Positions 566 through 20,132 of a stretch of DNA of 20,134 bases are shown here, piece by piece. Below the pieces are notes generated by a model. The model ran no database searches. It was not told where the DNA came from and was given only the letters and a program-made list of their open reading frames with translations. Every line of letters starts with the position of its first letter. Position 1 is the first letter of the stretch. Source of the DNA: a virus. The stretch spans positions 1 to 20,134 of the IMG/VR virus record IMGVR_UViG_3300042691_030096; one strand, written 5' to 3'. A program made the translations under genes and the position numbers.

Positions 566-3500
566 TTAGAAAGTTCCTTCATCAATGGTGGCATCAATGG
601 TACCAGCGGAGAAATTACCGCTACTATCACGAGCAACAATTGCGCTTACAGTGTTGGCACTGGTGGCAGTGGTGGCGCTGTTGCTAACTTTTCCTGCAGT
701 GGAAATCGTATTCAGCTTGGTATCAGCAATGCTGCCAGCAAGCATCGTATTGGTAACAGTGCCAGTATCTCCCGTAGTGATAATTGTGCCAGTTACGTTG
801 GGAAGCGTGACCGTGCGATCAGCCGTAGCGTCTGCAGCAGCAAGTTGAATTTCAAAAGCATCATCAGTAGAGCCTTCAAAAAGCAACGTACCAGCGCTGC
901 TAATGACCACTTCGCCAGTGATGGTGCCACCAGCCCTGGGCAATGCAGCATTGGCCAAGTCAAACGCACTTTTCACTGCAGTGGCAGTAGCAGCAAGCGT
1001 AGAACTTGTAGTAGACGTGCTGTCAGTAAGAATGACAGTGCCACGAACGCTTGTCGTGGCGTCAGGAATGGAAATAACAGCATTCGTAGTGCCGCTCACG
1101 ACAGTGAGAGGAGAATTCACACTCACTGACAGAACAGTGCCGCTTGAAGGCGTGGTCCAATGCACGCCTCCGCCAAAAGCTGAATTAGCCGTAAGCACTT
1201 GTCCATTGGTCCCAACTGCTTGCCTAACAAGCGTTGTTCCACTGGCAACAAGAATGTCGCCTTTCGTGTAGGTATTAAAGCCCGTGCCGCCATAACCAGT
1301 GGTCAAAATACCACTTGCCACGTTGTTAATATTGCGGCATTCAGTATTAACTTCTTCAATTGCGGATTGCACATTGGTGCTTCCAATGGTTCCAGCAGGA
1401 GCGAACGCAACGTTAGAAGCAGTTTGCGACAGATAGGTGGAGCTAACATCAAGTTCCACCCATGCCGTACCATTACAAAGCAGGATGTCGGGCGGCTGCA
1501 AGACAGTTTCGGGAGCAGGCGATGTTCCCGTTCCACCACTCGCCACCACAACGTAATAGCGATTAAAAGTAGTTGAAGCGGCGGGCAGTGGTTGACCAAT
1601 AGACAAACCAATACCAGCACCATCGGCGCTAACACTGGCAATTGTATTTCCAGAAGCGTTGTAAGTGCCACCAAAAATAATCTCCCCCACTGAAATGCCA
1701 ACTGGGTTCCAAACGTTACCATCCCATAGATAGAGATCTTTCTCCAATGGATTGAAGAAGAATTGTCCAATAAAATCAGCAACTGGTGGCGCTTCACCAA
1801 ACTGACTCACTGAATAGTTGGCAAGCTTAGAAGCAAGAATTGCTTCGTCTTCAATAAATCCACTGCCAAATGTGCCAGTGGTAATTTTGCTTGCGGGAAT
1901 GCTTGGAATATCATCAGCGACGAGAGAGGCTTCGCCAGCGCTAACGTGTCCTTGCTCATCTACCGTCACTTTGTAATAAGTGCCAGAAGCCACGCTGTTT
2001 GCGTGATTGAAAATGCCGCTAACAGTGACCAAACCTGTACCAGCTTGCGCCACGCCTAATGCGGCAGTAGTTGCTTTTGGGAGATCGTCTGCAGTGATTG
2101 CCCGGAAAGTTGGAGCAGCATCAGCATTACCACTTGCCGGGCCAGCAAAAAAGCGTGTTGCTACTTGCGTGTTTAACGAAGGGACAATGGAAGCACTGAA
2201 TTCATCGGGGTAAGACGTGGTGTAAGCGTAAACAGTGTCGCCCGAAATAACAGTGGTGGCGAGGCCACTTTGACGGCGCCATTCGCTTCCTGTCCAGGTG
2301 TATTCAACGCCAGTATTTGTATTGAGCCATTGCTGACCAATGAAATCGCCATCACCAGTGGGGGTGGAGCCAGCAACAACAGCAGCGGAATTATCAGACA
2401 GCTTTGCAGCGGTTACGCCGCTGTCAACAATCTTTGCCGTGGTAATTGCATTATTGAGAATCTTGACAGTCGTGACAGCATCATTAGCAATGGTGGTAGT
2501 GAATCCAGCAGTGCCAGTGCCCGTAACGTCTCCCGAAAGAGTGATAGTTTGATCGCCAGTATTGGTGCCAGTGGAAGTACCAGAGAAGCTTCCATTTTGT
2601 GTGGCAAGCGTACCAAGGCCAAGCGTAGTGCGAATGTCAGCGACGCTCGCATCGTCAAGAATGGAGCGAGCTGCGGAAGTGCAAGGAATCTCCTCTACCG
2701 TGCCACCACTTGCAGAAAAGCGACCAAGGATGACATCGCTTGAGCTTGTAGCCTGAATTTTGCTGTAAGAAACTGCTGCATTAGCAATTTTGGCAGTTGT
2801 AACATTGCTGTCAACAATCTTGACAGTAGTAACTGAATCACTCGCAAGCTTGGCTGCCGTAACGTTTGCATCAACAATCTTGACAGTAGTAACGCCACTA
2901 TCAACAAGCTTTGCAGTGGTAATTGCACTATCGGCAATGTTGGCGGTGACAATGGAAGACGAATCATAGTCGCCGCTTCCAACTGTATTTTTTACGGCTA
3001 GCGAACCAAGGCCAAGCGTTGTACGCTGTGCGCTTGCATCAGCATCATCAAGAATGGCACGACCAGCAGCAGTGATCGTACTAGTGGCGTAAGTGTCAGA
3101 AGCAGTGGTATAAATGAGCTGACCAGATGCAGTGGTAAGTCCTGCAATTGAAGCAAGCGCTGCATCATAGGCCTGCACGTCAGTGCCAATAGCCAAGCCA
3201 AGATTGGTGCGAGCGCCAGAAGCAGTAGATGCGCCTGTACCGCCATCTGCAACTGCGAGATCAGTGATGCCACTGATGACACCCCCATTGATCGTTGCAT
3301 AAGAAATGGTGCCACTACTAAGCACGGCTGTGCCGCCAGTGATTGCCACGCCAGAAGCAGCTTGCACTGCCATGGTGTCAAGGCCAAGCGTTGTGCGCTG
3401 AGCAGCAGCATCTGCATCGTCTAGAAGCGCTCTACCAGCTTCTGTGAGCGTGATGCTTTCTACGTTGCCGCTACCAGCAGAAGCACGACCAAGAAGCACG

Positions 3501-4846
3501 CCACTTGCTACTTGCTGAATTTTGGCAAATGTAACGGCATTGTCTTCAATGGCAGCAGTGGGAATAGAACCACTTACATAGCTTCCAGAAGGGATGGAAC
3601 TGGCAGTAATAACCGCACCAGAAAGCTCTCCAGAAGAAAGACTTAGCTTGCTAATTGTGACAGCACCAGATGCAAGCTTTGCAGTGGTAATTCCGCTGTC
3701 AACAAGCTGTGCAGTATTGACGCTGCCGCTTGCTATCTTGGCGAGAGTTACGGCGGAATCGACAATGTTAATCGTGTCAATAGAACCACTTGCAAGCTTG
3801 CTTTGAGTGATGCCGCTATCGATGACGTTGATAGTGGCAACAGCGTTTGCAGCAAGCTTCGTTTGCGTAACGCCACTATCCAAGATATTAATAGTGGCCA
3901 CTGCATCAGCAGCAAGCTTGCTTTGCGTGATGCCGCTATCGACGAACTGCGCAGTGCCAACACTGCCGCTTGCCATCTTTGCGAGAGTAACAGCGCTATC
4001 AACAATATTGATTGTTGCAACACTGCCGCTTGCTAATTTGACCTGCGTAACTCCACTGTCAATGATATTAATTGTTGCTACGCTTCCAGAAGCTAGTTTT
4101 GCTTGCGTAACTCCACTGTCAATGATGTTGACGGTGGCAATGGATGAAGCAGCAAGTTTTGCTTGCGTGATGCCGCTATCAACTAACTGTGTGGTACCAA
4201 CTGAACTCGCTGCCATCTTCGCGAGTGTGACGCCACTAGCAGCAATATGCACAGTGTCAATGGCACCAGCACTTACATTGCTTCCAGTGATGCCACTGGT
4301 TTGAATTTTTGCAGAAGTGACAGCACCATCAAGAATTTTTGCCGTCTCCACTGCATCAGCAGCAAGCTTACCAGCAGTGACAGCTAGGTTATTAATCTTG
4401 CCAGTGGTAACACTTAAATCCTCAAGAAGGCTTGTGTTGACAGTGTTGCCAGTGGCAACCACTCCCAGTTCCAATGTGGAACGAGCGCCAGCAGCGTCAG
4501 CGTCATCAAGAAGCGTACGAATATAAACAGTGCAATCAATCTCTTCTACATTGCCAGTAGAAGCACTGCGACCAAGCAGCTTGTTCGCACTTACTTGCTG
4601 GATCTTGTCGTAAGTGAGAGTATTGGTGGCAATGGACGTGCCAGTAAGTTTTGCGGCGCTCGCCTGATTAATCTTTGAAATATCTAACGTCGATGCGTCG
4701 GCAATGTTAAAGCCTGCTTGAATCAGGCTCTTTACCTGCACCTTCTTGGTTTGACTGGCGCTAATGTCTGCAATAGGCAGCACATCATTTGAAGCTACGC
4801 CTCCCTGAGGAAGTTCGACGAGTTCCGTAATTCTTTGATCGGCCAT
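566..4846 (-). CDS. Large repeat-rich tail fibre protein (1426 aa)
   Basis: This is a probable host-recognition fibre or shaft at the tail tip. The N-terminus (residues 1-45, MADQRITELVELPQGG then LPIADISASQTKK) matches a motif I know from cyanophage fibres and may attach the fibre to the baseplate. Residues about 141-400 are tandem decapeptides of the type [LI]xDSGVTxAK, with shorter arrays at about 636-700 and 787-816. A module ending in 'LDDADAxAxRTTLGL' occurs four times (about 81-128, 442-489, 585-613, 697-745). 'GQxW...W.G..W' units lie at about 836-856 and 1026-1047. The C-terminus has SVRGTVILTD (1266-1275), GGTITGEV (1306-1313) and IVARDSSGNFSAG (1403-1415), then stops only 11 residues later, where related fibres usually continue. 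Low-complexity Ser/Thr/Ala/Gly/Val composition is typical. The fibre call is confident; the receptor is unknown. Confidence 0.9.
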   Translation of the reverse strand: MADQRITELVELPQGGVASNDVLPIADISASQTKKVQVKSLIQAGFNIADASTLDISKINQASAAKLTGTSIATNTLTYDKIQQVSANKLLGRSASTGNVEEIDCTVYIRTLLDDADAAGARSTLELGVVATGNTVNTSLLEDLSVTTGKINNLAVTAGKLAADAVETAKILDGAVTSAKIQTSGITGSNVSAGAIDTVHIAASGVTLAKMAASSVGTTQLVDSGITQAKLAASSIATVNIIDSGVTQAKLASGSVATINIIDSGVTQVKLASGSVATINIVDSAVTLAKMASGSVGTAQFVDSGITQSKLAADAVATINILDSGVTQTKLAANAVATINVIDSGITQSKLASGSIDTINIVDSAVTLAKIASGSVNTAQLVDSGITTAKLASGAVTISKLSLSSGELSGAVITASSIPSGSYVSGSIPTAAIEDNAVTFAKIQQVASGVLLGRASAGSGNVESITLTEAGRALLDDADAAAQRTTLGLDTMAVQAASGVAITGGTAVLSSGTISYATINGGVISGITDLAVADGGTGASTASGARTNLGLAIGTDVQAYDAALASIAGLTTASGQLIYTTASDTYATSTITAAGRAILDDADASAQRTTLGLGSLAVKNTVGSGDYDSSSIVTANIADSAITTAKLVDSGVTTVKIVDANVTAAKLASDSVTTVKIVDSNVTTAKIANAAVSYSKIQATSSSDVILGRFSASGGTVEEIPCTSAARSILDDASVADIRTTLGLGTLATQNGSFSGTSTGTNTGDQTITLSGDVTGTGTAGFTTTIANDAVTTVKILNNAITTAKIVDSGVTAAKLSDNSAAVVAGSTPTGDGDFIGQQWLNTNTGVEYTWTGSEWRRQSGLATTVISGDTVYAYTTSYPDEFSASIVPSLNTQVATRFFAGPASGNADAAPTFRAITADDLPKATTAALGVAQAGTGLVTVSGIFNHANSVASGTYYKVTVDEQGHVSAGEASLVADDIPSIPASKITTGTFGSGFIEDEAILASKLANYSVSQFGEAPPVADFIGQFFFNPLEKDLYLWDGNVWNPVGISVGEIIFGGTYNASGNTIASVSADGAGIGLSIGQPLPAASTTFNRYYVVVASGGTGTSPAPETVLQPPDILLCNGTAWVELDVSSTYLSQTASNVAFAPAGTIGSTNVQSAIEEVNTECRNINNVASGILTTGYGGTGFNTYTKGDILVASGTTLVRQAVGTNGQVLTANSAFGGGVHWTTPSSGTVLSVSVNSPLTVVSGTTNAVISIPDATTSVRGTVILTDSTSTTSSTLAATATAVKSAFDLANAALPRAGGTITGEVVISSAGTLLFEGSTDDAFEIQLAAADATADRTVTLPNVTGTIITTGDTGTVTNTMLAGSIADTKLNTISTAGKVSNSATTATSANTVSAIVARDSSGNFSAGTIDATIDEGTF
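2747..2941 (-). repeat. Second decapeptide array in the fibre
   Basis: Residues about 636-700 form another run of the ten-residue unit, here closer to 'NVTTAKIVDS' and 'GVTTVKIVDA'. It sits between the third and fourth 'LDDAD...RTTLGL' modules. A third short stretch (residues about 787-816, bases about 2400-2488) has three more units. The arrays share the Lys at unit position 6 or 10, depending on how the unit is phased, and the Val/Ile spacing with the main array. Confidence 0.8.
3647..4426 (-). repeat. In-frame decapeptide (30 bp) repeat array in the fibre shaft
   Basis: Residues about 141-400 of the fibre divide into 26 consecutive ten-residue units. Two unit types alternate, 'LASGSVATIN' and 'IIDSGVTQAK', giving a 20-residue (60 bp) repeat. 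Above this is an exact 80-residue (240 bp) period: the string 'VTLAK-[MI]A' recurs at residues about 206, 286 and 366, which fall near 4230, 3990 and 3750. Codons differ between copies at many synonymous positions, so the repeat is kept at the protein level rather than being freshly duplicated. Such regular spacing suggests a rod-like trimeric beta structure, which is inference. Confidence 0.9.
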
Positions 4847-4922: not shown

Positions 4923-5933
4923 TTAATCAGTCACTTCTTTCAGCAGGTAATCAAGGCCCTGCTCAAGATAAATGGCATCATTATCCTCCTTGAGAATGTA
5001 CTCAGGAGGAACGCCCACTCTAATCTTGAATTCGCCCGTGGTAACAAAGTCAACAGAGCAAGCGACCAGCGCATCAGAAGTGACTGTTACTCCCGCCCTC
5101 GTCACCACTGCTTCAATGTCGTAATAGACCTCTTCCCTGAAAGTGGCTGATTGTTCCACTGAAGACAGCGCAAGCAATGCCTTGAAGCTACTGCCCACAT
5201 CCAAGCGATTAATCACTTGCAACAAGAACAATGGCACGTCCTGATCTGCCACTGTTTCATAGCTAAATAAGCATTCAATGCTACCATTGCCACTTAATAA
5301 GCCAGCCGAATACTGCTGCTTGAATCGGTCGGACAGACTTGTCGTTTCCATGGCAGCCCTGTCAGTATTGATTTCAAACGAGGTGACGGAGCCGAGAGTG
5401 TTGTACCTTGTATCCCTCACTCCAACTGTAATTGCAATGGGCTCGCCGTAGAATTCGGCCAAAGCATATTCGTTCGCTCTTTCATTATTAACAGCATCGC
5501 CAAAATCTTCAAATAAACGAATGCCGCCCACGCGGTTTACGTTGGCATAGGCTCTAATATTGTCGGCAACAATATAATCGCTCAGCCTGAATTCGTCATA
5601 CCCCTCAGGAGGCAGGTCGCTGCTAGTCGTAATATCATCATCTAAATATCCCGATATTGCGACAGTGCTTCCCGAGGAAAATACGGCTGCGCTATAGCCA
5701 TCAACGTCTGGCCCTGGAATACTCCAGAACGTAGCTGGCATGAATAAAAGCCCCCTGGGATCTTCGGTTGAAATCTCCAGAAGATCGCCGGTGATTAAAT
5801 TATCATCGCTTCCTTCAAAGCTAAAGCGATTCAACGCAGTGTTTACATCACTAGGCGAGACAGTAGTTGTGAAAGTGTTTTCACCTCCTCGCTGAAGCTT
5901 GATAGCGCCTGTATGGCCAACAAAAAATGTCAT
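4923..5933 (-). CDS. Tail-tube-like protein with a large internal insertion (336 aa)
   Basis: The N-terminus MTFFVGHTGAIKLQR matches the start of the preceding gene product (MPFYTGRTGKLRLGG). After about 165 dissimilar residues the similarity resumes: residues about 184-225 (FEINTDRAAMETTSLSD, then GLLSGNGSIECLFSY) align with the neighbour's WTLDTSVNMLDTTALGD and GLFSATGSATLSY. Residues about 271-306 have the closing strands (YYDIEAVVTRAGVTVTSDAL, then DFVTTG). I read it as a tail tube fold split by an inserted domain at about residues 16-180, followed by a charged C-terminal tail (307-336). Its position between the J-like hub and the fibre suggests a distal tail or baseplate ring rather than the main tube. 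The ATG at 5933 follows GAAGCGAG. No catalytic motif is visible. Confidence 0.6.
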   Translation of the reverse strand: MTFFVGHTGAIKLQRGGENTFTTTVSPSDVNTALNRFSFEGSDDNLITGDLLEISTEDPRGLLFMPATFWSIPGPDVDGYSAAVFSSGSTVAISGYLDDDITTSSDLPPEGYDEFRLSDYIVADNIRAYANVNRVGGIRLFEDFGDAVNNERANEYALAEFYGEPIAITVGVRDTRYNTLGSVTSFEINTDRAAMETTSLSDRFKQQYSAGLLSGNGSIECLFSYETVADQDVPLFLLQVINRLDVGSSFKALLALSSVEQSATFREEVYYDIEAVVTRAGVTVTSDALVACSVDFVTTGEFKIRVGVPPEYILKEDNDAIYLEQGLDYLLKEVTD

Positions 5934-5994
5934 CTCGCTTCAGCGACTATTCTTCCATTGTACGAACAATGCAAATTGTAAATTAAGCTTTCTA

Positions 5995-6414
5995 TCAAGT
6001 GGTACCAGTGAGAACCACTGCATCAAGGGGACCATCAACCGTAAAGTTAAACGAAACGGTGGTCAGCTCGTCAGTGGAGGAAGTGATGCTTGCACTGTTA
6101 ATGTAAGCATCAGCATTAAATGTCTGGCTTGTCCCCACTTCAAAAGTGAGGTTGACGCGGTCGCTTTCAGTGACGGCGCCAGTTTTAGTGATCTTCTCAA
6201 GAAGATTGGTCACGTCAGTAGTATCGCCATTGTAATAAGACAGCGTGGCGCTACCAGTGGCGCTAAATAGACCAGGCGTGAATGTATTGGCAGTGTCTCC
6301 AAGCGCCGTGGTATCCAGCATGTTGACGGAGGTGTCAAGCGTCCAGTTGCGCACTTTCGACACTTCGCTGCCACCAAGACGCAATTTGCCAGTGCGGCCA
6401 GTATAAAAGGGCAT
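5995..6414 (-). CDS. Tail-tube-fold protein (139 aa)
   Basis: A small, acidic, beta-rich protein rich in Thr and Ser and lacking Cys. The order 'GRTGKLRLGG', 'WTLDTSVNMLDTTALGD', 'GLFSATGSATLSY', then a closing strand near 'SASITSSTDELTTVSFNF', is what I expect of phage tail tube proteins, which form hexameric rings. It lies 43 bases downstream of the hub gene and 61 bases upstream of its larger relative. Main tube proteins normally sit before the tape measure gene, and this phage seems to have one there (19554-20132). This copy may therefore form a specialised ring at the tail tip. It could instead be the true main tube protein, since its length fits that family well. Confidence 0.6.
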   Translation of the reverse strand: MPFYTGRTGKLRLGGSEVSKVRNWTLDTSVNMLDTTALGDTANTFTPGLFSATGSATLSYYNGDTTDVTNLLEKITKTGAVTESDRVNLTFEVGTSQTFNADAYINSASITSSTDELTTVSFNFTVDGPLDAVVLTGTT

Positions 6415-6457: not shown

Positions 6458-9400
6458 TCAATCAATGCGATATAGCGATGGGTCAAAGCGAACAATTTTG
6501 GACTTCGTTTGCCCGCCTTCTTCTTCGCATGGGTGCTCAATGGCTCTCACTGTAATTTCACCTTCTTCCTCCATTGACACTTCAGTTACGCGGAAAACAC
6601 GCTTGGCAGTTACTGCAGTGCCAAGTACAAACAACCATCCTTCGTATGCAGCAAGGGAGGATGATTGACTGTCTGCCACTGACACTGAAAGCTTTACAAT
6701 TCCTTCATTAGGGCTGCCGCTATACAGAAGCGCTGTGTAGGAGCCGTTGATTGGATCCTCGGCCAATGGCGTGTTTAGTCTGCCGTCTGCTTCAACAATA
6801 CCACTACGGAAATCGTCCCATTGATTCTGGTCTGTTTGCACATAAATGTAGCTGCCAGGCTCGATAGGGCTTTCAGTGGGGAAGGTTTTAAATTCAACGG
6901 CTCGCCTTGAAAGTCTACGTTGCTGGCAAAGCAACATTCCATAATGCAGCGCTTGCACTCTTCTTGTGACAAAATCTGACAAATTAAACGTCTGGCGAAC
7001 ACTATTGCTCTCCGATGCATCGGCCAGCATGATTGTCAAGCTTGTATTGCTCGGAAATACATTGTCATTTTCTGTGTTGCGGTAGACGATGGTGGCAATC
7101 AAATCTTGCGTATTGTCGCCATAGTCAAGAAACTCTTCTTTGTAGCTGTCCTCAAGAATGTTTCCTTGATTGAATAATGCGGAAATAGAAATATTTCTGG
7201 TGACATTACCAAAAGTGTCATAAGGCACGGCTGGAACCAGCGTTTCTTTTCCACCAATCCGCGCAAACTCAAGAAGAGAAAACGGTGCAACAGTGCTCCA
7301 AAATTCTCGCCATGATTGCGGCTCCGCAATCACTCCATCCATGTAGTAGCCATTGGCCCGGCAGAATTTTTGTGCCAAACCAAGGCGCACCGTATCAATG
7401 CCATTGACATTAGCATAGGCACCAATGCCATTTTTCTCGTCAAGAATGGTGTCAAGAAAAATCTCGGGAGCATAACTTGTTGACGAAACAAGGCTAGACG
7501 AATAGCTTCCGCTATCAGAAAGTTTCCGAACCTTCTTGCCTTTTGTCACCCATGCACTAAGAGAGCGCAAATCTTGCACACCTTGGCCGCTATAAATATT
7601 CAAACCAAGCAGAACAAGATCTTGGTAAAGATTGGACGAAAAGCTTTCAAGCTGCTGTTCAGTTACTGCGACCAAGGAATTTTCAGGGCCGCCATCAAAA
7701 GAAAAAGAAATTTGCGTGTCAGAACGCAAAGAGAAAAGCCCCCATTCATCAATAAACTTTGGCGTGCGATTTAAACGAGGCCGCAAACGGATGGTCCGGC
7801 GAATCGTGCCACGAAAAATAAGTCTATGTCCACCATCAAGATCCACTCCTTTTTGCTTGTCATTTAATCCATAGCCAAAAGTACGAAGATAAAGAATGTC
7901 GATATTTTGCGCATCATTGTGAGTGCGCAGCTCTGCTGGCAGGTCGACAATGGGCTCAAATCTAAACTGCCATTTTTCTTTTGATGCAGCAATAAAACGA
8001 AGATGGGTGTAAATATCAACTTCCTTGCCATTGCGAATGGCTAGCACGTACTTTGCTCTTGTATAACGAGAGTCCCCTGGTTTCTTATAAAGCATCCAAA
8101 ACATTGACGTACGATTGCGCACACCGTTGTCGCTATCCTTGTGCCCTTGCATGTCTTCTTCTGCATATTTACTTTGCCTTCCTTGAATGCGCTGGAAGAT
8201 TTTGCTCTTAAAACAAAAGTTAACAATGTCGCATTTAGTAGTAGCTTCGTAACTAATTTCGTCGATCTTTGCAATGCATTTTGTGTTGAAATAGTCGTTC
8301 CAATTATCCGTATTCTTTAGTTCCGCTTCTGTTTCTCGCAATTCTCTTGTTGCTTCGTCGTACTGTTGTTGCCATGCCCGCTGCGCCGCTGTTTCCGCTG
8401 GAATATCCCGCTGATTGCGCATGAGCTCGTCAATGGCGCGCCTGATTTGACGACGCTCCTTGCGCATGGCACGCAGCTCATCTTTTAAATTAGTCCTTGG
8501 TGAGCCATCAAATAAACCCTCTTCAATCGCCCTTGGCATGAGACGACGAACAATCTCGTTAATCTGTCGTCTGCTTTCTTTTTTGGCGGTTGTTTGATCG
8601 CGAATTGCTTGCCTTTTTTCACCTCTCTTTTCCTTGAGTTTCGCAATTCTTTCTCTTTGATTGTCAGTAAAAGGTCTTTCGGCCAAAAGGTCTTGAATCG
8701 TTGAATTAATATCTTCTAGTTCCTCGCGACGTGCATCAATAATCCTATTGCGCTCCCTGATGTCATCTTCTAGATTGTTAATTTGCACATTTGCTTCTTG
8801 GAAGGCGCCAGTTGAATCAAGGAGATCCCTAAAGTCCCGAGAAGAAATATCTCCTTTTCTGATGGCAGAAGCAAGTAAAATATTTTCATCTACTTGCTCC
8901 AATCTTGTAGCGTATTGATCAATTTGAGCTGCAGTGGCACCATTGATTTTATTCCCAAAAGCTATTCCTTTGCCAATAAGAAGCTGAGTGATGAGATCCT
9001 CTAATTGCTTTTTTTTCGCTCGCAGCTCTTCACCGTTTTCCTGGTAATTAAGCGTGCCATAATCTTCTTCGCATAGCACACCAGCTTCAATACATTTAAA
9101 TGTAAATCGACCCTCAATGTCAACATCGTCCCTAATATCACTGGAAATCATTTGTAACTTGGCTGCACCAAGCTTATACACGCTAGAAGAATCAAAAACG
9201 GAAATATAAGAACTGCGTAAATCAACAGCGGCTCTTTCCACGTCTTCATCAACGCTCTTGCCATCCTCTTCATTAAAAATAATCGTCAATCTTTCCCCAA
9301 TTGGCAACGCGGGACGCTCTCCTACAACAGGCCAGCTTGCTGGCCAATACCGACCTCTGTCCGACATGGTAATTCCAAGTCTGTCACGCTCCTCATTTCC

Positions 9401-10177
9401 TTCGTCATCCCTATCTTCCACTTGTACATTGATGGGCACCACGTCATAAGCTCCCAATGAGGTGCCTGTCGTAGGAGAAAAAGCTTGGCTAAAGCCCTCT
9501 GGTCTTCGCAGTCCAGACGTGTTTGCTTTGTAAACTGCATCGGACGGAGTAATTCCTTCCCTTGATGGATCATCATCGTTTAGAGGCTCTGGATATCTGT
9601 TATGAAGGAAAGCAAGGCGCCCGCCCTCTGGTTGTGCATAAAGCCAGAAGCGTTGTGCAGGAATGTCTCTTAATGGCGTTTGACCAAAAGCCGTGCGACC
9701 ATAGCCAAATTCTTCAATAGGACCAGCGCCCACCACTGCAAGCATTTGCATAAATTGGTTAGTTCCAAGACTATGCACTGCAGACCATACCAGCGAAGTA
9801 TTAACCCTTACGCCACCACTTGTAGTATTTTCTGCGATGTTGGTATAAATGAGATTGACCGGATCACCGTAACGGGCCACTTCCTGAAAGGAATTGAAAC
9901 CATATCGAGGAGCAAAGAATAAATTCCTGCTCCGCCGTCCCATTGTTGCGCTGGGAGCTTCTGGCTTGGGAGCAAGTAACGCAGCGCCAACTTGCGCCAA
10001 GGTTCCAATGATGGTGAGAACCAATGCTATGGTTCCCACCTCGTTCCTTACGTCAAAAACAGTTCCTTCTTTATTGTCGCGATAATTCAACCGCGCTAAA
10101 TAAAATTGCCAGTATTCCTCTTCCGAGATTTGCAGGGCTTCAATCAGGGCTTTTTCGTAAGGAAGAAGCTTGCGCAT
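6458..10177 (-). CDS. Lambda J-like tail tip / central hub protein (1239 aa)
   Basis: Size, place in the operon (after an NlpC/P60-like gene, before fibres) and sequence point to the J-like hub that closes the tail tip and carries the fibres. Residues about 1-45 are a charged helical segment, followed by one hydrophobic stretch (about 47-70, VGTIALVLTIIGTL onward) like that in the gpI/J region of lambdoid tails. Residues about 90-180 and 730-1239 look like the conserved hub, ending in beta-rich repeats (RVFRVTEVSMEEEGEITVRA, about 1193-1212). Between them, about 383-402 and 460-625, is a highly charged Arg/Glu/Lys coiled coil. Cys residues flank it (362, 369 before; 634, 649, 655 after). The ATG lies 2 bases after the stop of the upstream gene. 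Confidence 0.8.
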   Translation of the reverse strand: MRKLLPYEKALIEALQISEEEYWQFYLARLNYRDNKEGTVFDVRNEVGTIALVLTIIGTLAQVGAALLAPKPEAPSATMGRRSRNLFFAPRYGFNSFQEVARYGDPVNLIYTNIAENTTSGGVRVNTSLVWSAVHSLGTNQFMQMLAVVGAGPIEEFGYGRTAFGQTPLRDIPAQRFWLYAQPEGGRLAFLHNRYPEPLNDDDPSREGITPSDAVYKANTSGLRRPEGFSQAFSPTTGTSLGAYDVVPINVQVEDRDDEGNEERDRLGITMSDRGRYWPASWPVVGERPALPIGERLTIIFNEEDGKSVDEDVERAAVDLRSSYISVFDSSSVYKLGAAKLQMISSDIRDDVDIEGRFTFKCIEAGVLCEEDYGTLNYQENGEELRAKKKQLEDLITQLLIGKGIAFGNKINGATAAQIDQYATRLEQVDENILLASAIRKGDISSRDFRDLLDSTGAFQEANVQINNLEDDIRERNRIIDARREELEDINSTIQDLLAERPFTDNQRERIAKLKEKRGEKRQAIRDQTTAKKESRRQINEIVRRLMPRAIEEGLFDGSPRTNLKDELRAMRKERRQIRRAIDELMRNQRDIPAETAAQRAWQQQYDEATRELRETEAELKNTDNWNDYFNTKCIAKIDEISYEATTKCDIVNFCFKSKIFQRIQGRQSKYAEEDMQGHKDSDNGVRNRTSMFWMLYKKPGDSRYTRAKYVLAIRNGKEVDIYTHLRFIAASKEKWQFRFEPIVDLPAELRTHNDAQNIDILYLRTFGYGLNDKQKGVDLDGGHRLIFRGTIRRTIRLRPRLNRTPKFIDEWGLFSLRSDTQISFSFDGGPENSLVAVTEQQLESFSSNLYQDLVLLGLNIYSGQGVQDLRSLSAWVTKGKKVRKLSDSGSYSSSLVSSTSYAPEIFLDTILDEKNGIGAYANVNGIDTVRLGLAQKFCRANGYYMDGVIAEPQSWREFWSTVAPFSLLEFARIGGKETLVPAVPYDTFGNVTRNISISALFNQGNILEDSYKEEFLDYGDNTQDLIATIVYRNTENDNVFPSNTSLTIMLADASESNSVRQTFNLSDFVTRRVQALHYGMLLCQQRRLSRRAVEFKTFPTESPIEPGSYIYVQTDQNQWDDFRSGIVEADGRLNTPLAEDPINGSYTALLYSGSPNEGIVKLSVSVADSQSSSLAAYEGWLFVLGTAVTAKRVFRVTEVSMEEEGEITVRAIEHPCEEEGGQTKSKIVRFDPSLYRID
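8303..9031 (-). other. Charged coiled-coil insertion in the hub protein
   Basis: Codons for residues about 383-625 of the hub encode long runs of Glu, Arg, Lys and Gln with heptad-like Leu/Ile spacing, for example 'RIIDARREELEDINSTIQDL' and 'RKERRQIRRAIDELMRNQRD'. The flanks are beta-type sequence. Two helices separated by the Pro/Gly-containing 'GLFDGSPRTN' suggest a hairpin or an extended arm. Confidence 0.65.
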
Positions 10178-11065: not shown

Positions 11066-11461
11066 TCAAGCGCCAGAATAATCAAGCTCGCCAATCAGTC
11101 TCACTGTAACAGTGCTTCGTCCATTGAACACGCTTTCCACTTGCGGAGGTTCGGCATATTCCCAAAGGATGCTAGTAAAAGCCTGTAGAACGCCTTTTAG
11201 CTCAGAGGAAATGCCAGAAAAAACAGCATCAGGGAGAGTGAAGCGAGCATAGTTACCAAACTGTCCATAGTAGTGATCAAGAATGGCTTTTGTATTTACG
11301 TCAGAAATGTTTTCAAATTGCAGATCGATGACATGGCCAAATGAGCGATTACCAAACACTCGCTTAACAGTGGCGCCTGAAAGGCCACGATAAGTTTTAG
11401 TGGGAAATTGCCCTGGCGAATAAGACCGCCCTGTTGGGCGAATAGAAGGGAAAACTGCCAT
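11066..11461 (-). CDS. Minor tail protein, M-like position (131 aa)
   Basis: The first gene after the tape measure, where siphoviruses encode the distal tail or gpM-like protein that initiates tube assembly. The N-terminus 'MAVFPSIRPTGRSYSPGQFP' and the middle 'RVFGNRSFGHVIDLQFENIS' (residues about 34-53), then 'WEYAEPPQVESVFNGRSTVT' (about 99-118), are a pattern I recognise from minor tail proteins of cyanobacterial and proteobacterial phages. The start codon overlaps the tape measure stop as TGATG, which suggests translational coupling. No enzyme motif is present. The structural role is likely; the exact ring it forms is not known. Confidence 0.6.
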   Translation of the reverse strand: MAVFPSIRPTGRSYSPGQFPTKTYRGLSGATVKRVFGNRSFGHVIDLQFENISDVNTKAILDHYYGQFGNYARFTLPDAVFSGISSELKGVLQAFTSILWEYAEPPQVESVFNGRSTVTVRLIGELDYSGA

Positions 11462-14400
11462 CAGCGAATACCAATGCTAGAGCGAGTGGAGGGGCTTTGT
11501 TTAATCTTATCGAGAGTCATTGACATGCCTCGTTGAGCGCCACCTGCAATGGAAGCGCGGCGAGTTTCTGCCATTGCTTGCTCTAATTGTTCGCGGCTAA
11601 CGTATTCTACGCCATTGATCTTAGTGGTTTCAAACTTCATGCTGAGAGAAGGCGCCTGAGGCATGCCAGGGGCGTTGTCGCCCATCATGTCACGAGCGGA
11701 ACGTCCGCCGAGCTGCACGGGAATGGAGCGGCCATCGGGAAGGGGTACAACTGCTTCGTTGTACTTACCTTCGCCGATGAGGCTAAGCGTGGGGCCTGTG
11801 ACAATGCCGCCATTAGCAAATGCAGGTGGCGCGAACGGCATAGAACCTGGCGCTCCACCTCCTCCCATGCCTCCTGCGTATTGACGTATTCCGGGAAGAC
11901 TGTCCGAAATACCTCCTCCGCTCCCTGCTGGATTGCCTCCTCCACCAAGGCCAGCAAACAGTTTTGCAATACCAATGGCGATGTAAGTGGCAATCATTTG
12001 CGAAGCTGCCTGAGACAATGCTTGACCTACGCTTTGCAAGAAGCTTGCGAATACTTCCTTGGCAGTGGCAGTGCCAGTAATGAGGCTCGCTACGCCCATA
12101 GTCAAGGCTTCTCCGAAAGCACTGCCAATTCCATAAATGGACTGTTTGATGGCTTCGTTTCTTGTCTCAAGAAGAGTGAGTTGATTCTGCAGTTCAGCAA
12201 AGCGCGACGCTTGATCTTGAGTGGCGTCGCGTCCAATAGCCTCTTCAAATTTTTCTCCAGCGGAACCAATAAAGCCCGCAGAAAGCCCCATCCCTCCCAA
12301 TGGCGTGGCACGAGTGATTTGCCCGCGAAGAGTGGATTCAGCAGTTTGCTGCTCCAAGCCAAGCCTCTCTCTTAATAGAGGAATGTAATTTGCAAGCGCT
12401 TTTTCTTGCTGGCTAATGTAATCAAGTTGTTTTTGGTTTTCTGCCGTTAATTGCTGATTGGTCAGCTTACCTTCGCTGGCCAAAGCGTTATTTTCTTCAA
12501 TCTTCTTCTTGGCGATGCCAATATTTAAAGTGGCCTTTTCTGTTGCCTCCGCAATTTTCGCCTCCGTCTCCAATCTTTCCCCAAATATCCCCGAAGAAAG
12601 AAGCGCAATCCTTTGCTGAACAAGTTGATTCTCCAGTTTTTGTTCTTCTACTGGTGCGATTAGCGCCACTTGCTCTTTAATTAGCGCGGCAATTTTCATC
12701 TGCGCTTCAATGTTTGCCTGCTTGATTAGTACTCCTTCTTGCTCTTTTTGATTAAGAGCTGTTTGAGCAGCAAGGGCGGCATTGTAGTCTTTCTTAAGTT
12801 CAGCCCTTTGACGTGAAGCAGGCATTCCGCCAGCACCTGGCTCCTGCAGATGTCCCACTTTATACATCTGCCCCTGTGGGCCACGAACATTAGCCGTATA
12901 CCCAAGGCCTCCTTCCATCCCGGAGCTGACCATGCTGTAGCCAGATGCGAGGTTCAATGGAGTGTTGGCAGCACCAGCGAGATCAATTCCGCGATGGAAC
13001 GTGCTAGCACCAGGAATGCCAGTGTTACGGGGACCGTAGCCACTTGTCATCTGCAAGCCTCTATTTACGCCAGCGTCAAATAGAGCGCGAGCTTCTGCTT
13101 CCGTGATGCGACCACCATCCGCTCGTCGAACATCAAAATGAGGACCACTAGAGATGCCAGTGCTACCTTGAAGAAGGCCAGTCACTCCACCGCCGCTGCC
13201 CCCTCCGGCAATATAAGACTTAGCCCCGGCATTGATTTCTGCTTTCGCAGTAGCTTCACGAGCCTTGCGCACTGCTTCAATGCGGCCAATCTCAACGTCT
13301 TGCAGTTGCTGTTGAAATTTAATAGCCTGTGACAAGAATGAATTCTCGCCGGCAATAAGGATGTTGTATTTTTCTTGTTGCAGAGATTTCCAATGCTCAA
13401 ATTGCAAATTATCCAATTCAAGAGCTTGGATGTTATTCATCTTTAGCAAATCACTTTCATACTTTGCTTTATCATCAGCAAGTTTACGGGCGTCTTCTGC
13501 GGCTTTTTCGGCTGCTCGTTTAGCCTTTTCGTCTGGCGCCTCCGCCTCGGTCTTAGTGGCAGGAGGAGTAGGAACATTGAGACCAATGTCTTTTGCGACT
13601 TGTTGCGCTGTTGTAACGGCTGATTTTGCCTCTTGTAGGCTTACTTTTTGTTCTTGCGCAACCCGACCAAAATCTTGCTGTAGCTGTTGCATTTGCTGGG
13701 TCGTAGGAAGCTGCATTTGGCGACGGCCGCCCCTAATTCCTCCGAGCATGCCTTTAGTAAGCTCAGAACCCTGTAATGCAGCGCTTTCTTCTGGAGTTAG
13801 TGAAACAGAGAATCCTCCTTCTCGCTGAAGGGCAGTAGATCTGGAGCGAAGATTACGAAGCGTTTCTAGAGCTTTTTTGTCCGCACGACTTTGAGCCAGG
13901 ATATTTTGCATGCTCATCTGAGCGCCTGCGACATTTCCGCTTGCGGCAGCATCAACGGCAGCTTTTGCCGCATCACGAGATGACTGAGCGGCTTCTTGCG
14001 CTCTATCTCTCATTGTGCCAAATGCTCCTGCTATCAGCATAATGCCGCCCACGATGGCGCCAAGAATTGTCGTTGCTGCAAACACGCGAAGAGCAGTGGT
14101 GAGTCCTACGGTTTTGACAGTAGCGCCAGTAGCGGCCACGCCGAGCACGTTAAAAGCTCCGGCCAAAGTATTTGCACCAACAGTGGCCGGGCCAAATCCA
14201 AGAATAGTGGACAAAGCGCGATAGGTTAAGAGTACTCCCATCAGAGCCATTGCCGCCAAGCGCGCAGTCTGGAAACCAATGTAAAAAGAAGTGATGAGGC
14301 TAATAACAGTGGTTAAATTGGTGCCAAGAATATTGAGAATGGGGGATAAAACACTGCCAATCGCTTTGGCTGTGTTCATCACAAAAGTGCCTGCCTTGGC

Positions 14401-17400
14401 AAGTTCCTGAGTGAACAATTGAATATCTTGTGCTTGCTTGGAAATCGCAGGATCTTGTGCTGCTTGCTGCAGAGTCTTGTATCGTGCAGTCAACGCCGCC
14501 ACGTTTTGCTCCGCTGCCCTTAATTGGCTTGCGTCAGCGCCACCTGTTCGTAAATCGCCAAGATCTTTCTGTGCTTCCTTGAGCTGCATAAACGTGCGCT
14601 CGATTTCGCCAGTGGCGATTTGAGCAGACATTGAAAGCTGTTTCAATGATCCGCCAAGAGGTCCAAGAATTGCCTGCGCTGCTGCATCTGCTAATGGCGC
14701 AAAGCTTTCAAGAGTGCGCTTAAAGTCGCCTTGAACAGTGTTGAGCAGACCCTGTAGTGACTTTCCTGCTGCTTGCGCTCCAGTGCCGAAGCGCCTCATA
14801 AGCTCATCAGCCACTTTCGCAAACGTATCTCTAAATTTGCTTCCAACAAATTCTCCGTCCTCCATCGCCTTGCTGAATTCCTTGACGGACATACCAGCAG
14901 CTTTTGCAAAGATGGCCAAGGCGCCAGGTAGCACATCGCCCAATTGCCCCTTGAGCTCTTCACTCATAATCTGGCCTTTGCTTGCCATTTGCCCGAAGGC
15001 GTAGATGACGCGCTCGGCCTTGTCCGGCGTCAGTTGCAAAGCGGCAGTGGCAGCGCTAATGCCAGTAAAAAGTTTTTCAATAGAGCCAGAATCAAAGCCT
15101 GTAGGCGCCATAGAGGCATAAAGCCTGGTAAAACCAGTACGTGTGGTTTCAAGATTCAAGCCAAATGCTCGTTGTACATTGTCAACGTACAAAAGTTCTT
15201 TCGCGAAAGTACCAGTGTCTTGCGTGGCGGTCTGCAAAGCATTATTGTATTGTTGCTGGCTCTTTGCTGCATTTAAAATTTGCCCAGGTAAACTTTGCAC
15301 AAAGGCAAGCGCCTTGTATGCAGTACCAAACAAAAGCACTTGTTTAATGGCGAAACCAAATTCGCCAGCAACTTCTCTTAGTCCTCCGACTAAAGGTAGT
15401 TGACTTGCCGTAAATTTCGCCGAAGTAGCCCGCGCCATTTCAAGCGCAGCGCTGTATTTTTTGGCGCTTTCAAAATATCCTTCTGGTAATCTTGTAGACG
15501 GCGCAAACGGAACAATCGCCCCTCCCCTTTGAGGTGGCTGACCCATCCCTGTCACACGGTCGGAACCGCCGGAACCTCCTATGGGCGGCAAGGCTCTTTG
15601 CAGAGGCATTCCAGGTAGTTGAGCACCCTGTCCAAACTCAAAAAACTGACGAGACTGAGCGGGTCTTGTTCCGGGGCCAAACAATCCTTCTTTCAATTGC
15701 TGAGAAATTCGCTGAACGAATTGACCTGGCCCCTCTTTTGTCGATGGCAAGTCGGAAACGCTAATCTTTTCGGGGCGGAATAAATTCAGATATTTGATGA
15801 CAGTTGGAGCATTTTGCGCAAAAGCAATCGCGCTCGCTTTGAGTTTTTCAAAGATACTGCCTTTCCCGCTAGTTATGAGTCCTTGCACGCCTCCTGTTTC
15901 TTGGCGTCCGAATGCTCCAATGTTCGCAAGACTGGATTGCAGCTCGCGATTTTTCATTAAGCCAAACGATGATTGCCCTGCCGCAGGCAAGGCTGGCACC
16001 CTCATTTGAGCACGTGTTTGCCTTAGCATCTCTCCCGCTTGAGTTCTTGCTTGACGAGCAGCAAAAATTGCAGCTTTTTCTGCGTCGATAGCAGCAGCTT
16101 TATCCATCGCTTCTTGGAAGCGTTGTTGTTCTTTCTGTTGGGGGCTTCTGTATGAAGTCTGCCCCGCGCCAGGCAGCAGCAGGCCTTGCATTTGCTGACG
16201 CAAGGCATTTTGCATATCAGTTTTAATGGCCTGTGTGATTGCAGCTTGAAATTGACGCTGCTCCATCATGGGCCGCAGCATTTCAGAAGATGGCAATGCG
16301 GCAATAGGACCACGAGCGCCAGTGATTGCTTTGATTCCTTGCGACGCCTGCTGCATTGAGGCGGCAAAATTACGAGTGGCACGAGGAAGATAGCTATTCG
16401 CTGCAAAATTTTCTTGCAACATGCGTTGTGCATCTTGCATGCCCTTGTAAAAATTTTTAACAACAACATCTTGTCCGCTAACCATGGGCACTGTTGAAAT
16501 ACCAGCAGGAAGCATTCTTCCTGCTGCCTGCGCTAGTGAGCCACGCTCGGAAGTTAATCTTTCTTGACGACGCTCTCTGATTTGAGCGAGCTGTGCATAT
16601 GCTTGGTCTATTTCTCGTGCAATAGGAGCGGATTCAGGCGCCCCTCCCATGGCAACAAAAGGAAAATCGCTCCGACGAGACGGAGTCATGCGAAGCATTG
16701 CTTGAAGCTTGCTTAGTCGCCCTTGAAGCTTGCGCTCAAGCTCATCAAAGGCTCTATCCATAGAGGCAATAGCGCCAAGCTCAAAGCCTTCCCCTACATT
16801 CTCACCAATTGCCTTGAATACTTTTGATGGCGAAGCAATGCCAAGAGTGCTCTTGATTGAAGAAATTAAAGACCTGCCAAGACCTTTGGCTGCAACTTTA
16901 ACCTGCGCATCTCCGCTTTTTAGGCCATTAAGCAAGCCTGCTATAGATTCTTGCCCTACTTCGCTAAGCTCTTTTGAGATTTTAGAGACGTTATTGGCGA
17001 TGGCATCATTGAACGCAACAATACCAGCCTCTGCTGCCGCTTTATACAAAGGCTTAATATCTTGCCCTAGTTTTTTTAACGCCGCCTGAGAAAATCTTTC
17101 GCCTGTCACGCCAGCAATGCCCTGAGCTTTTTGAGCTCTCGGCAAATCTCGCAATGCGTCCGCCAAATCTTTGGCTTTTTTAATTTCTGCGTCTAAGTTT
17201 GTTTTGACCTCAAGGGTATAATTCCTGCGTCGAATATTCGCGCCAAGCGCATTTAGCTCATTCTGTACAGAGCGTCGATCGAACTGTACTTTTACGGGGA
17301 GATTGTATCCAGCCGCGGTTTGCCCCAGCCCTACTAATTGCTGCCTAAAAAATCCCAGGTCAAGACTTACCTTCAGCTTCAATTCGGCGTCTTGAGCCAT
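11461..17400 (-). CDS. Tape measure protein (1979 aa) with a partial M23-like module
   Basis: The longest gene in the window and the protein that sets tail length. Residues about 180-206 hold a 'LGIASPSKVFKAIGENVGEG' motif common in tape measures. Residues about 715-900 look like the tape measure core domain ('GQMASKGQIMSEELKGQLGD', 'GLLNTVQGDFKRTLESF'). About 1003-1131 is strongly hydrophobic, and a second hydrophobic stretch is at about 1770-1817; such parts can enter membranes during DNA delivery. About 1453-1525 resembles an M23 peptidase ('TSGYGPRN', then HRGID with His1469 and Asp1473, and 'VGHL' with His1517). The C-terminus (about 1857-1890) ends in the usual 'GGIVTGPTLSLIGEGKYNEA' type. 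Upstream is the frameshifted chaperone gene, 34 bases away. Confidence 0.92.
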   Translation of the reverse strand: MAQDAELKLKVSLDLGFFRQQLVGLGQTAAGYNLPVKVQFDRRSVQNELNALGANIRRRNYTLEVKTNLDAEIKKAKDLADALRDLPRAQKAQGIAGVTGERFSQAALKKLGQDIKPLYKAAAEAGIVAFNDAIANNVSKISKELSEVGQESIAGLLNGLKSGDAQVKVAAKGLGRSLISSIKSTLGIASPSKVFKAIGENVGEGFELGAIASMDRAFDELERKLQGRLSKLQAMLRMTPSRRSDFPFVAMGGAPESAPIAREIDQAYAQLAQIRERRQERLTSERGSLAQAAGRMLPAGISTVPMVSGQDVVVKNFYKGMQDAQRMLQENFAANSYLPRATRNFAASMQQASQGIKAITGARGPIAALPSSEMLRPMMEQRQFQAAITQAIKTDMQNALRQQMQGLLLPGAGQTSYRSPQQKEQQRFQEAMDKAAAIDAEKAAIFAARQARTQAGEMLRQTRAQMRVPALPAAGQSSFGLMKNRELQSSLANIGAFGRQETGGVQGLITSGKGSIFEKLKASAIAFAQNAPTVIKYLNLFRPEKISVSDLPSTKEGPGQFVQRISQQLKEGLFGPGTRPAQSRQFFEFGQGAQLPGMPLQRALPPIGGSGGSDRVTGMGQPPQRGGAIVPFAPSTRLPEGYFESAKKYSAALEMARATSAKFTASQLPLVGGLREVAGEFGFAIKQVLLFGTAYKALAFVQSLPGQILNAAKSQQQYNNALQTATQDTGTFAKELLYVDNVQRAFGLNLETTRTGFTRLYASMAPTGFDSGSIEKLFTGISAATAALQLTPDKAERVIYAFGQMASKGQIMSEELKGQLGDVLPGALAIFAKAAGMSVKEFSKAMEDGEFVGSKFRDTFAKVADELMRRFGTGAQAAGKSLQGLLNTVQGDFKRTLESFAPLADAAAQAILGPLGGSLKQLSMSAQIATGEIERTFMQLKEAQKDLGDLRTGGADASQLRAAEQNVAALTARYKTLQQAAQDPAISKQAQDIQLFTQELAKAGTFVMNTAKAIGSVLSPILNILGTNLTTVISLITSFYIGFQTARLAAMALMGVLLTYRALSTILGFGPATVGANTLAGAFNVLGVAATGATVKTVGLTTALRVFAATTILGAIVGGIMLIAGAFGTMRDRAQEAAQSSRDAAKAAVDAAASGNVAGAQMSMQNILAQSRADKKALETLRNLRSRSTALQREGGFSVSLTPEESAALQGSELTKGMLGGIRGGRRQMQLPTTQQMQQLQQDFGRVAQEQKVSLQEAKSAVTTAQQVAKDIGLNVPTPPATKTEAEAPDEKAKRAAEKAAEDARKLADDKAKYESDLLKMNNIQALELDNLQFEHWKSLQQEKYNILIAGENSFLSQAIKFQQQLQDVEIGRIEAVRKAREATAKAEINAGAKSYIAGGGSGGGVTGLLQGSTGISSGPHFDVRRADGGRITEAEARALFDAGVNRGLQMTSGYGPRNTGIPGASTFHRGIDLAGAANTPLNLASGYSMVSSGMEGGLGYTANVRGPQGQMYKVGHLQEPGAGGMPASRQRAELKKDYNAALAAQTALNQKEQEGVLIKQANIEAQMKIAALIKEQVALIAPVEEQKLENQLVQQRIALLSSGIFGERLETEAKIAEATEKATLNIGIAKKKIEENNALASEGKLTNQQLTAENQKQLDYISQQEKALANYIPLLRERLGLEQQTAESTLRGQITRATPLGGMGLSAGFIGSAGEKFEEAIGRDATQDQASRFAELQNQLTLLETRNEAIKQSIYGIGSAFGEALTMGVASLITGTATAKEVFASFLQSVGQALSQAASQMIATYIAIGIAKLFAGLGGGGNPAGSGGGISDSLPGIRQYAGGMGGGGAPGSMPFAPPAFANGGIVTGPTLSLIGEGKYNEAVVPLPDGRSIPVQLGGRSARDMMGDNAPGMPQAPSLSMKFETTKINGVEYVSREQLEQAMAETRRASIAGGAQRGMSMTLDKIKQSPSTRSSIGIR

Positions 17401-19553: not shown

Positions 19554-20132
19554 TCAGGAATTAGGAGCAGTCGGGATGATGCTGCCAGTCTCCGAAGCAT
19601 TCTGGTGGATACCAATGCGACCACGACTGGTCAGATCAAACGTCACTTCCACGAGGTTATCAGCAGGATAGCTCTCGTTGTAGTTCATCACGCAAGCGAC
19701 GAAAGCCACGCGATCATAATAGTAAGTGTTGCCCGAAGCGCCAAGTTGCTTGTTGATCTCCACGTACACTTCGTGGTTCTTGTCGTAACGACTAGCACTT
19801 ACAGTTTGGAAAGCTTCGTCAAAACTGTTGGGCAGGAACACAGTGCCATCGACGTCCTTCTGGAAGTAGGAAGTGATGGAAGCAGTGGCCTGGCTGGTGG
19901 TAATTATGCTATCAGCGAAACCGCCGCCGCCCAGCAGGTAGAATTCTTGGTTGCCATCGTTAAAGGCAACAGAAGCAGTGGTAGCTGCTTGCAGAGTGTA
20001 GAGAGTGGGGGCGCCGCTAACAGTAAAAGTGGCGCCACTTTGAGTGATAACGGGACGAGAAGTACCGCCAATGGAGCCAACGCGGACAATCACGTCCTGG
20101 CTCTTCACTAGCTCAGTGGGATGGTAGAGCAT
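19554..20132 (-). CDS. Probable major tail tube protein (192 aa, start near window edge)
   Basis: A beta-rich protein with few charged residues in its first half and a clear closing part: 'FLPNSFDEAFQTVSASRYDK' (about 98-117), 'HEVYVEINKQLG' (119-130), 'YYYDRVAFVACVMNYN' (136-151) and 'VEVTFDLTSRGRIGI' (160-174). The last strand, with 'FDLTSRG', is typical of tail tube proteins of TP901-1 or lambda V type, which stack as hexameric rings around the tape measure. The strong terminator directly after it fits a highly expressed structural gene. The ATG at 20132 is two bases from the window edge, so a longer upstream start cannot be excluded. A decoration or neck protein is the main alternative. 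Confidence 0.6.
   Translation of the reverse strand: MLYHPTELVKSQDVIVRVGSIGGTSRPVITQSGATFTVSGAPTLYTLQAATTASVAFNDGNQEFYLLGGGGFADSIITTSQATASITSYFQKDVDGTVFLPNSFDEAFQTVSASRYDKNHEVYVEINKQLGASGNTYYYDRVAFVACVMNYNESYPADNLVEVTFDLTSRGRIGIHQNASETGSIIPTAPNS

Follow-up and report, generated by a model that had tools for sequence, protein, structure and literature searches.

Why two proteins with a tail-tube fold should be encoded beside the hub of a phage tail, when a probable main tube gene lies elsewhere in the same DNA, is the question raised by a 20,134-base viral fragment (the window, that is, the whole stretch of DNA that was analysed). Every tail gene of the window lies on the minus strand: MT, small tail genes, the tape measure, tip genes of 131, 171 and 125 aa, a J-like gene, P1, P2 and a fibre gene. 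P1 and P2 are directly downstream of the J-like gene and thus between a tail-tip gene and the fibre gene (features below, with the evidence in brackets).

19554-20132, minus strand: MT, probable main tail tube protein, 192 aa (phrog_1407, E 3.1e-5; kept in G023 and S-CBS4)
11461-17400, minus strand: tape measure, 1979 aa
11066-11461, minus strand: minor tail protein, 131 aa (phrog_15525, E 8e-20)
6458-10177, minus strand: J-like hub/central fibre, 1239 aa (phrog_31 'central tail fiber J', E 3.5e-12; phrog_469, 1e-4)
5995-6414, minus strand: P1, minimal tail-tube-fold protein of 139 aa with no insert (PHROG profiles, tblastn, AF2, Foldseek)
4923-5933, minus strand: P2, tail-tube-fold protein of 336 aa with an inserted domain (profile alignment, AF2, Foldseek)
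566-4846, minus strand: repetitive tail fibre, 1426 aa (phrog_28766, tail fibre, E 2.2e-40)
4667-4846, minus strand: first 60 residues of the fibre, N-terminal anchor and candidate partner of P2 (conservation, co-occurrence)

Compared with the near relative G001, the tape measure is a patchwork (last 120 residues 90% identical, residues 577-1636 43%), and the small genes beside it are 97-100% identical; tape measure residues 1450-1520 gave a weak match to a metallo-endopeptidase family. J is only 42% identical to the J of G001, whereas the 131-aa gene and P1/P2 are 92-98% identical, and J residues ~380-640 form a long charged coiled-coil-like segment with a weak match to tape-measure profiles. 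The fibre is rich in degenerate repeats with the pattern SG(S/A)VATINIIDSGVTQ(A/T)KLA.

Both open reading frames were found at the positions, and with the sizes (139 and 336 aa), given for them in the original prediction, which had also described a shared stretch of the first ~15 residues and, past an insertion of about 165 residues in the larger protein, a second aligned block. The first 15 residues do pair (MPFYTGRTGKLRLGG / MTFFVGHTGAIKLQR), and the second block was recovered as P1 17-128 against P2 179-300 with an offset of 162 residues; the Smith-Waterman score of P1 against P2 was 76, compared with 37.9 +/- 6.6 for shuffled P2, and lies beyond chance, with 0 of 500 shuffles scoring as high. 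Profile-profile alignment with hhalign paired P1 17-132 with P2 179-304 (E 1.2e-5), and one loop motif is common to both (TTSLSD...SAG, conserved in P2, against TTALGD...TPG in P1). The tree built from the tube part placed P2 in a clade of its own (100/97), apart from a second clade that joins P1 to canonical major tail proteins (100/97), so the split between P1 and P2 predates the divergence of the sampled phages. P1 and P2 are old paralogues with a tail-tube fold. Origin of P2 by recent duplication of P1 was ruled out by the same tree, and a frameshift fusion of the two was rejected as well, P2 having its own complete N-terminus and P1 stopping 61 bases before P2.

Profile comparison with tail tube families and structure prediction, two checks proposed with the original prediction, both led to tail-tube proteins. 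P1 matched the major tail protein families phrog_10528 (E 3.4e-9) and phrog_1407 (E 4.2e-8); P2 matched phrog_1407 (0.0027), as did 16 of the 28 P2 family members. The match of P1 to Pfam PF16460 falls under the curated cut-off (18.1 against 28.4 bits). By tblastn, P1 hit proteins that are major tail proteins by annotation or by position in P-HS2/MED4-184 (39% over 79 residues), S-H1 (29%), phi3LM21 (28%), DSL-LC06 (29%) and some Roseobacter phages, and in 4 of 4 records inspected the P1-like major tail gene precedes the tape measure. Judged by sequence, P1 is related over its whole length to genuine major tail proteins. AF2 models of the two proteins (single chains, built with 20-28 relatives, of moderate confidence with mean pLDDT 65 and 68) showed the common element order b1-b2-b3-helix-b4-b5-b6, which was also read as two long strands, a helix and then three strands. 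In Foldseek searches of the PDB, the top matches of P1 were all tail-tube or neck-ring proteins (prob 1.0; C. difficile CD1364, lambda gpV, GTA, R4C) and those of P2 were 80alpha baseplate/tube chains and the R4C tail tube protein (prob 0.9-1.0), with E-values that were modest for these matches (2e-3 to 0.15). Another strong phrog_1407 match (E 2.6e-11) was noticed at G010:C1:80688-81104, on a 106.7-kb contig that also carries P1 and P2 at ~44 kb; it may be a further tube gene or reflect a joined assembly.

If P1 is so close to major tail proteins, it might itself be the real main tube, moved behind J, with MT serving another role, for example as head-tail connector. P1 does match major tail families better than MT (3.4e-9 and 4.2e-8 against 3.1e-5), it groups with true major tail proteins in the tree and it has the minimal, GTA-like size; moreover, MT stands ahead of two 142-153-aa genes rather than beside the tape measure, and by hhalign it had no detectable similarity to P1 or P2 (P 0.78 and 0.07). 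Against this, MT matches phrog_1407, the 'major tail protein' family, in 8 of 10 members of its own family (3.1e-5 being the best E), and is kept where the pair is missing. Among 20 MT-bearing records checked, P1 and P2 were both present in 15 and both absent from 5. Two of the latter (G019 and G032) are short fragments; S-CBS4, G023 and G027 keep MT, the small genes that follow it and parts of the tape measure, and have a different tip module, in S-CBS4 one with lambda-type tail proteins and J, with the window-type J, P1, P2 and the fibre anchor all absent. G023 and S-CBS4 need a tube protein, have no P1-like one at E 0.1, and offer MT (94% and 54% identical to that of the window, respectively) as the only candidate found. 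Since MT is 94% identical in G023, which lacks P1 and P2, the shaft is probably made of MT there and, by the same token, in the phage of the window. Most long relatives hold two to three phrog_1407 genes. A main shaft tube gene was expected between the connector genes and the tape measure in all relatives, which is not where, or how widely, P1 and P2 occur; the linkage of P1 is with P2, J and the fibre, not with the shaft genes. A relocated main tube is thus rather unlikely, and MT is, as far as sequence can tell, the likely main tube protein of the shaft. The original prediction had placed a probable main tube at 19554-20132, which agrees with the family match, with its location where a tube gene usually lies and with the retention of MT in relatives without P2, though its product is not directly similar to P1 and P2. 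The pair would then be additional to the main tube and not the tube of the shaft.

Co-occurrence in related phages, likewise proposed as a check, was strict. The linkage runs J-(131 aa)-P1-P2-fibre: P1 was directly upstream in 67 of 67 distinct P2 genes, and at these 67 loci P1 was preceded by J in 61 cases and by the 131-aa gene in 5, with one contig ending there (the 131-aa gene lies between J and P1 in some relatives; gene order in L225, L221 and L294-L310). Next after P2, in 55 of the 56 genes having room, came a fibre with a common 60-residue N-terminus, and these first 60 positions show 72-79% mean pairwise identity, falling to 41-60% beyond. The fibre anchor was found in 8 of 9 P2-bearing and 0 of 5 P2-less records tested. 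Relatives of P2 numbered 536 among the IMG/VR candidates. The carriers are uncultured aquatic phages, the nearest isolate being a Synechococcus phage; tblastn of P2 against 50,697 isolate phage records gave no match, and a scan of bacterial genomes with two patterns gave none that was confirmed. The link to the fibre N-terminus, missed in the original prediction, is the best functional clue.

P2 could be divided into four regions.

5877-5933, minus strand: P2 residues 1-19, first strand region, common to P1 (alignment; 72% mean pairwise identity in the P2 family)
5436-5876, minus strand: P2 residues 20-166, domain inserted in the beta1-beta2 hairpin (alignment)
5007-5435, minus strand: P2 residues 167-309, remaining tube fold with the TTSLSD...SAG loop (alignment, model)
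4926-5006, minus strand: P2 residues 310-336, conserved C-terminal tail, EYILKEDNDAIYLEQGLDYLLKEVTD (70% mean pairwise identity)

The insert of ~147 residues thus sits within the beta1-beta2 hairpin. Its middle (P2 residues 76-125) is the least conserved part (37% mean pairwise identity, length 3-50 residues), compared with 58-61% in the insert flanks and 70% in the tube part. Searches of Pfam, PHROG and PDB sequences with the insert of the P2 family gave no match; in Foldseek the only alignments, long but weak, were with baseplate wedge initiators of cyanomyophages (prob ~0.6). The same hairpin is a hot spot for insertion, as G031-type homologues of P1 (276 aa, at 18 loci) carry an independent insert there; such ~276-aa homologues, at L220:5546-6373 and L311-L328, had no significant match to the P2 insert profile. 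The C-terminal tail had no structure in the AF2 model (pLDDT <50, residues 311-336), yet it is conserved about as well as the tube part, and a search for its motif in the nearest whole genome, G001, returned P2 itself and one chance-looking ORF only. In lambda gpV the beta1-beta2 loop contacts the outer Ig domain, and in a type VI secretion tube the outer sheath (PMC8718954). Because the loop faces outward in these tubes (PMC8718954), the P2 insert is expected, by analogy, to point outward too. The exposure of the inserted domain that the original prediction had supposed is supported by this position and by the variability of its middle.

An outward, variable domain would also suit a model in which P1 and P2 are minor components interspersed in the shaft and the P2 insert decorates the length of the tail and binds carbohydrate, as in Ig-decorated tubes. 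Outward decorations are common on tube proteins (lambda, T5, YSD1, JBD30), and the insert middle is the fastest-changing part of P2, as for a surface domain. The genes nevertheless lie beside J and the fibre, co-occur strictly with them and are absent with other tips despite the same MT, and the far divergence of MT from P1 and P2 makes co-polymerisation less likely; we regard shaft subunits as very unlikely. Of the two arrangements that had been envisaged, a stepped ring stack or a decorated tube, one or more rings at the tip therefore seem plausible and decoration of the whole tail less likely, because the pair travels with J and the fibre and is absent despite a near-identical MT.

The insert and the fibre N-terminus changed together. 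At G025 and 16 related loci (type B), the tip module has the order J-131aa-P1-P2-fibre, in which J, the 131-aa protein, P1 and P2 (in its tube part) can still be recognised. The type-A insert profile gave no match in G025 P2, nor did blastp, and the type-B fibre begins with a sequence unrelated to anchor A (MTAILLPGQAGAINDIDITQAGF...). At all 17 of these loci the other type was seen in insert and fibre N-terminus alike, and never in just one of them: 17 of 17 type-B P2 genes were followed by a type-B fibre, and type-A P2 genes with room by a type-A fibre. Types A and B together amount to about one evolutionary switch. G021 shares its gene order with type B, and its J scores nearer to type B than to the window, yet it carries insert A and anchor A. 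At L328 the fibre start was missed by the simple start rule, though the frame matched anchor A. Judged by eye, insert B retains a GD...GL-like core, so that it may be distantly related to insert A. The type-B fibre at L221:11054-15499 (1481 aa) has a beta-helix-like N-terminal part (PFKTLQRALIEAARLS..., SPGEHIIDN), which presumably resembles cyanomyophage structural proteins. Since insert and anchor are encoded in neighbouring genes, transfer of a single DNA block could change both without contact between them.

P1 and P2 might also act purely as tip assembly rings, initiators in the manner of T4 gp48/gp54, with the fibre bound to J or to the 131-aa protein. Additional tube-fold rings do start the tube in T4 (PMC10038345), and the tube loop motif is preserved in both P1 and P2; a pure initiator leaves the large insert, and its joint change with the fibre anchor, unexplained, and appears quite unlikely. 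The arrangement that we favour, and hold to be somewhat more probable than its alternatives taken together, is that of accessory tip rings at the distal end of the tube, with the P2 insert facing outward as a fibre dock. P1 would form a plain ring that continues the tube, and P2 a ring from which the beta1-beta2 insert projects outward; the insert, possibly with the conserved C-terminal tail, would hold the first ~60 residues of the fibre whose gene follows, and the side fibres would in this way be mounted on the tail tip. As regards this last contact, J or the 131-aa protein may equally well be the partner of the fibre. More tentatively, and with rather less confidence than in the rings themselves, a tube fold may have been turned into a socket, the P2 insert recognising the side-fibre N-terminus, with socket and plug exchanged together.

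Duplicated tube folds at a tail tip are less unusual than the original prediction had held, as T5 p140 and T4 gp54 provide precedents (PMC10038345). T5 p140 forms a tube-fold ring that adjoins the last tube ring and is encircled by the p132 collar bearing the side fibres, which are grafted on the collar probably via ~50 N-terminal fibre residues; p140 is only 9% identical to pb6, and the authors of the T5 structure regard the p140/p132 genes as a landmark of T5-like phages only (PMC10038345). The likeness would lie in an additional tube-derived ring at the distal end with side fibres. In T5, however, the collar is a separate Ig-fold protein, whereas here the outward part would lie within the ring protein, and the p140-type gene (read as T5.144) adjoins the main tube gene and is not behind the hub. 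Comparison of P1 and P2 with T5 tail proteins (HMM, hhalign), which covered p132 only via small ORFs near ltf, gave no similarity to p140 or pb6 (P 0.05-0.28). On the best reading of this analogy, P1 and P2 would work like the T5 collar and are not detectably homologous to p140/p132. T4 gp54, another extra tube-fold ring, and gp48 are comparable by description, as extra tube-fold rings between the hub and the first main tube ring (PMC10038345). T4 differs in its contractile tail. We know of no link between an insert and a fibre for T4 gp54/gp48.

Other tube proteins share single traits with the pair. P1 is similar over its full length to the minimal major tail proteins of siphophages and GTA (phrog_10528, phrog_1407, PF16460), with the same size and topology, and differs from them in lying behind J instead of before the tape measure and in being a second tube gene in the genome. 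The YSD1 tube protein (domain 2) and the JBD30 decoration domain resemble P2 in having an additional domain within the tube fold, which is inserted there after the helix and before beta4 and in P2 in the beta1-beta2 hairpin. The Synechococcus siphophage S-H1 likewise has a doubled tube gene, with two adjacent, unannotated tube-fold genes (L136:32532-33373), both matching phrog_10528 and both similar to the P1 and P2 profiles, but in the canonical place before the tape measure and neither with an insert.

Extra tip rings are therefore already known, and what appears new is the beta1-beta2 insert with its linkage to the fibre N-terminus: no description of it, and none of a 'second tail tube protein' for this phage group, was found in the literature searched, most subscription journals lying outside it. 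How side fibres attach to long, flexible tails has been established in few phages. Widespread aquatic phages appear to reach a T5-like solution from the tube fold itself, and if the socket reading is true, they would have a fibre mount that can be swapped and needs no separate collar protein. The joint change of insert and anchor leads directly to a prediction that can be tested, and it would assist the annotation of fibre attachment among uncultured phages.
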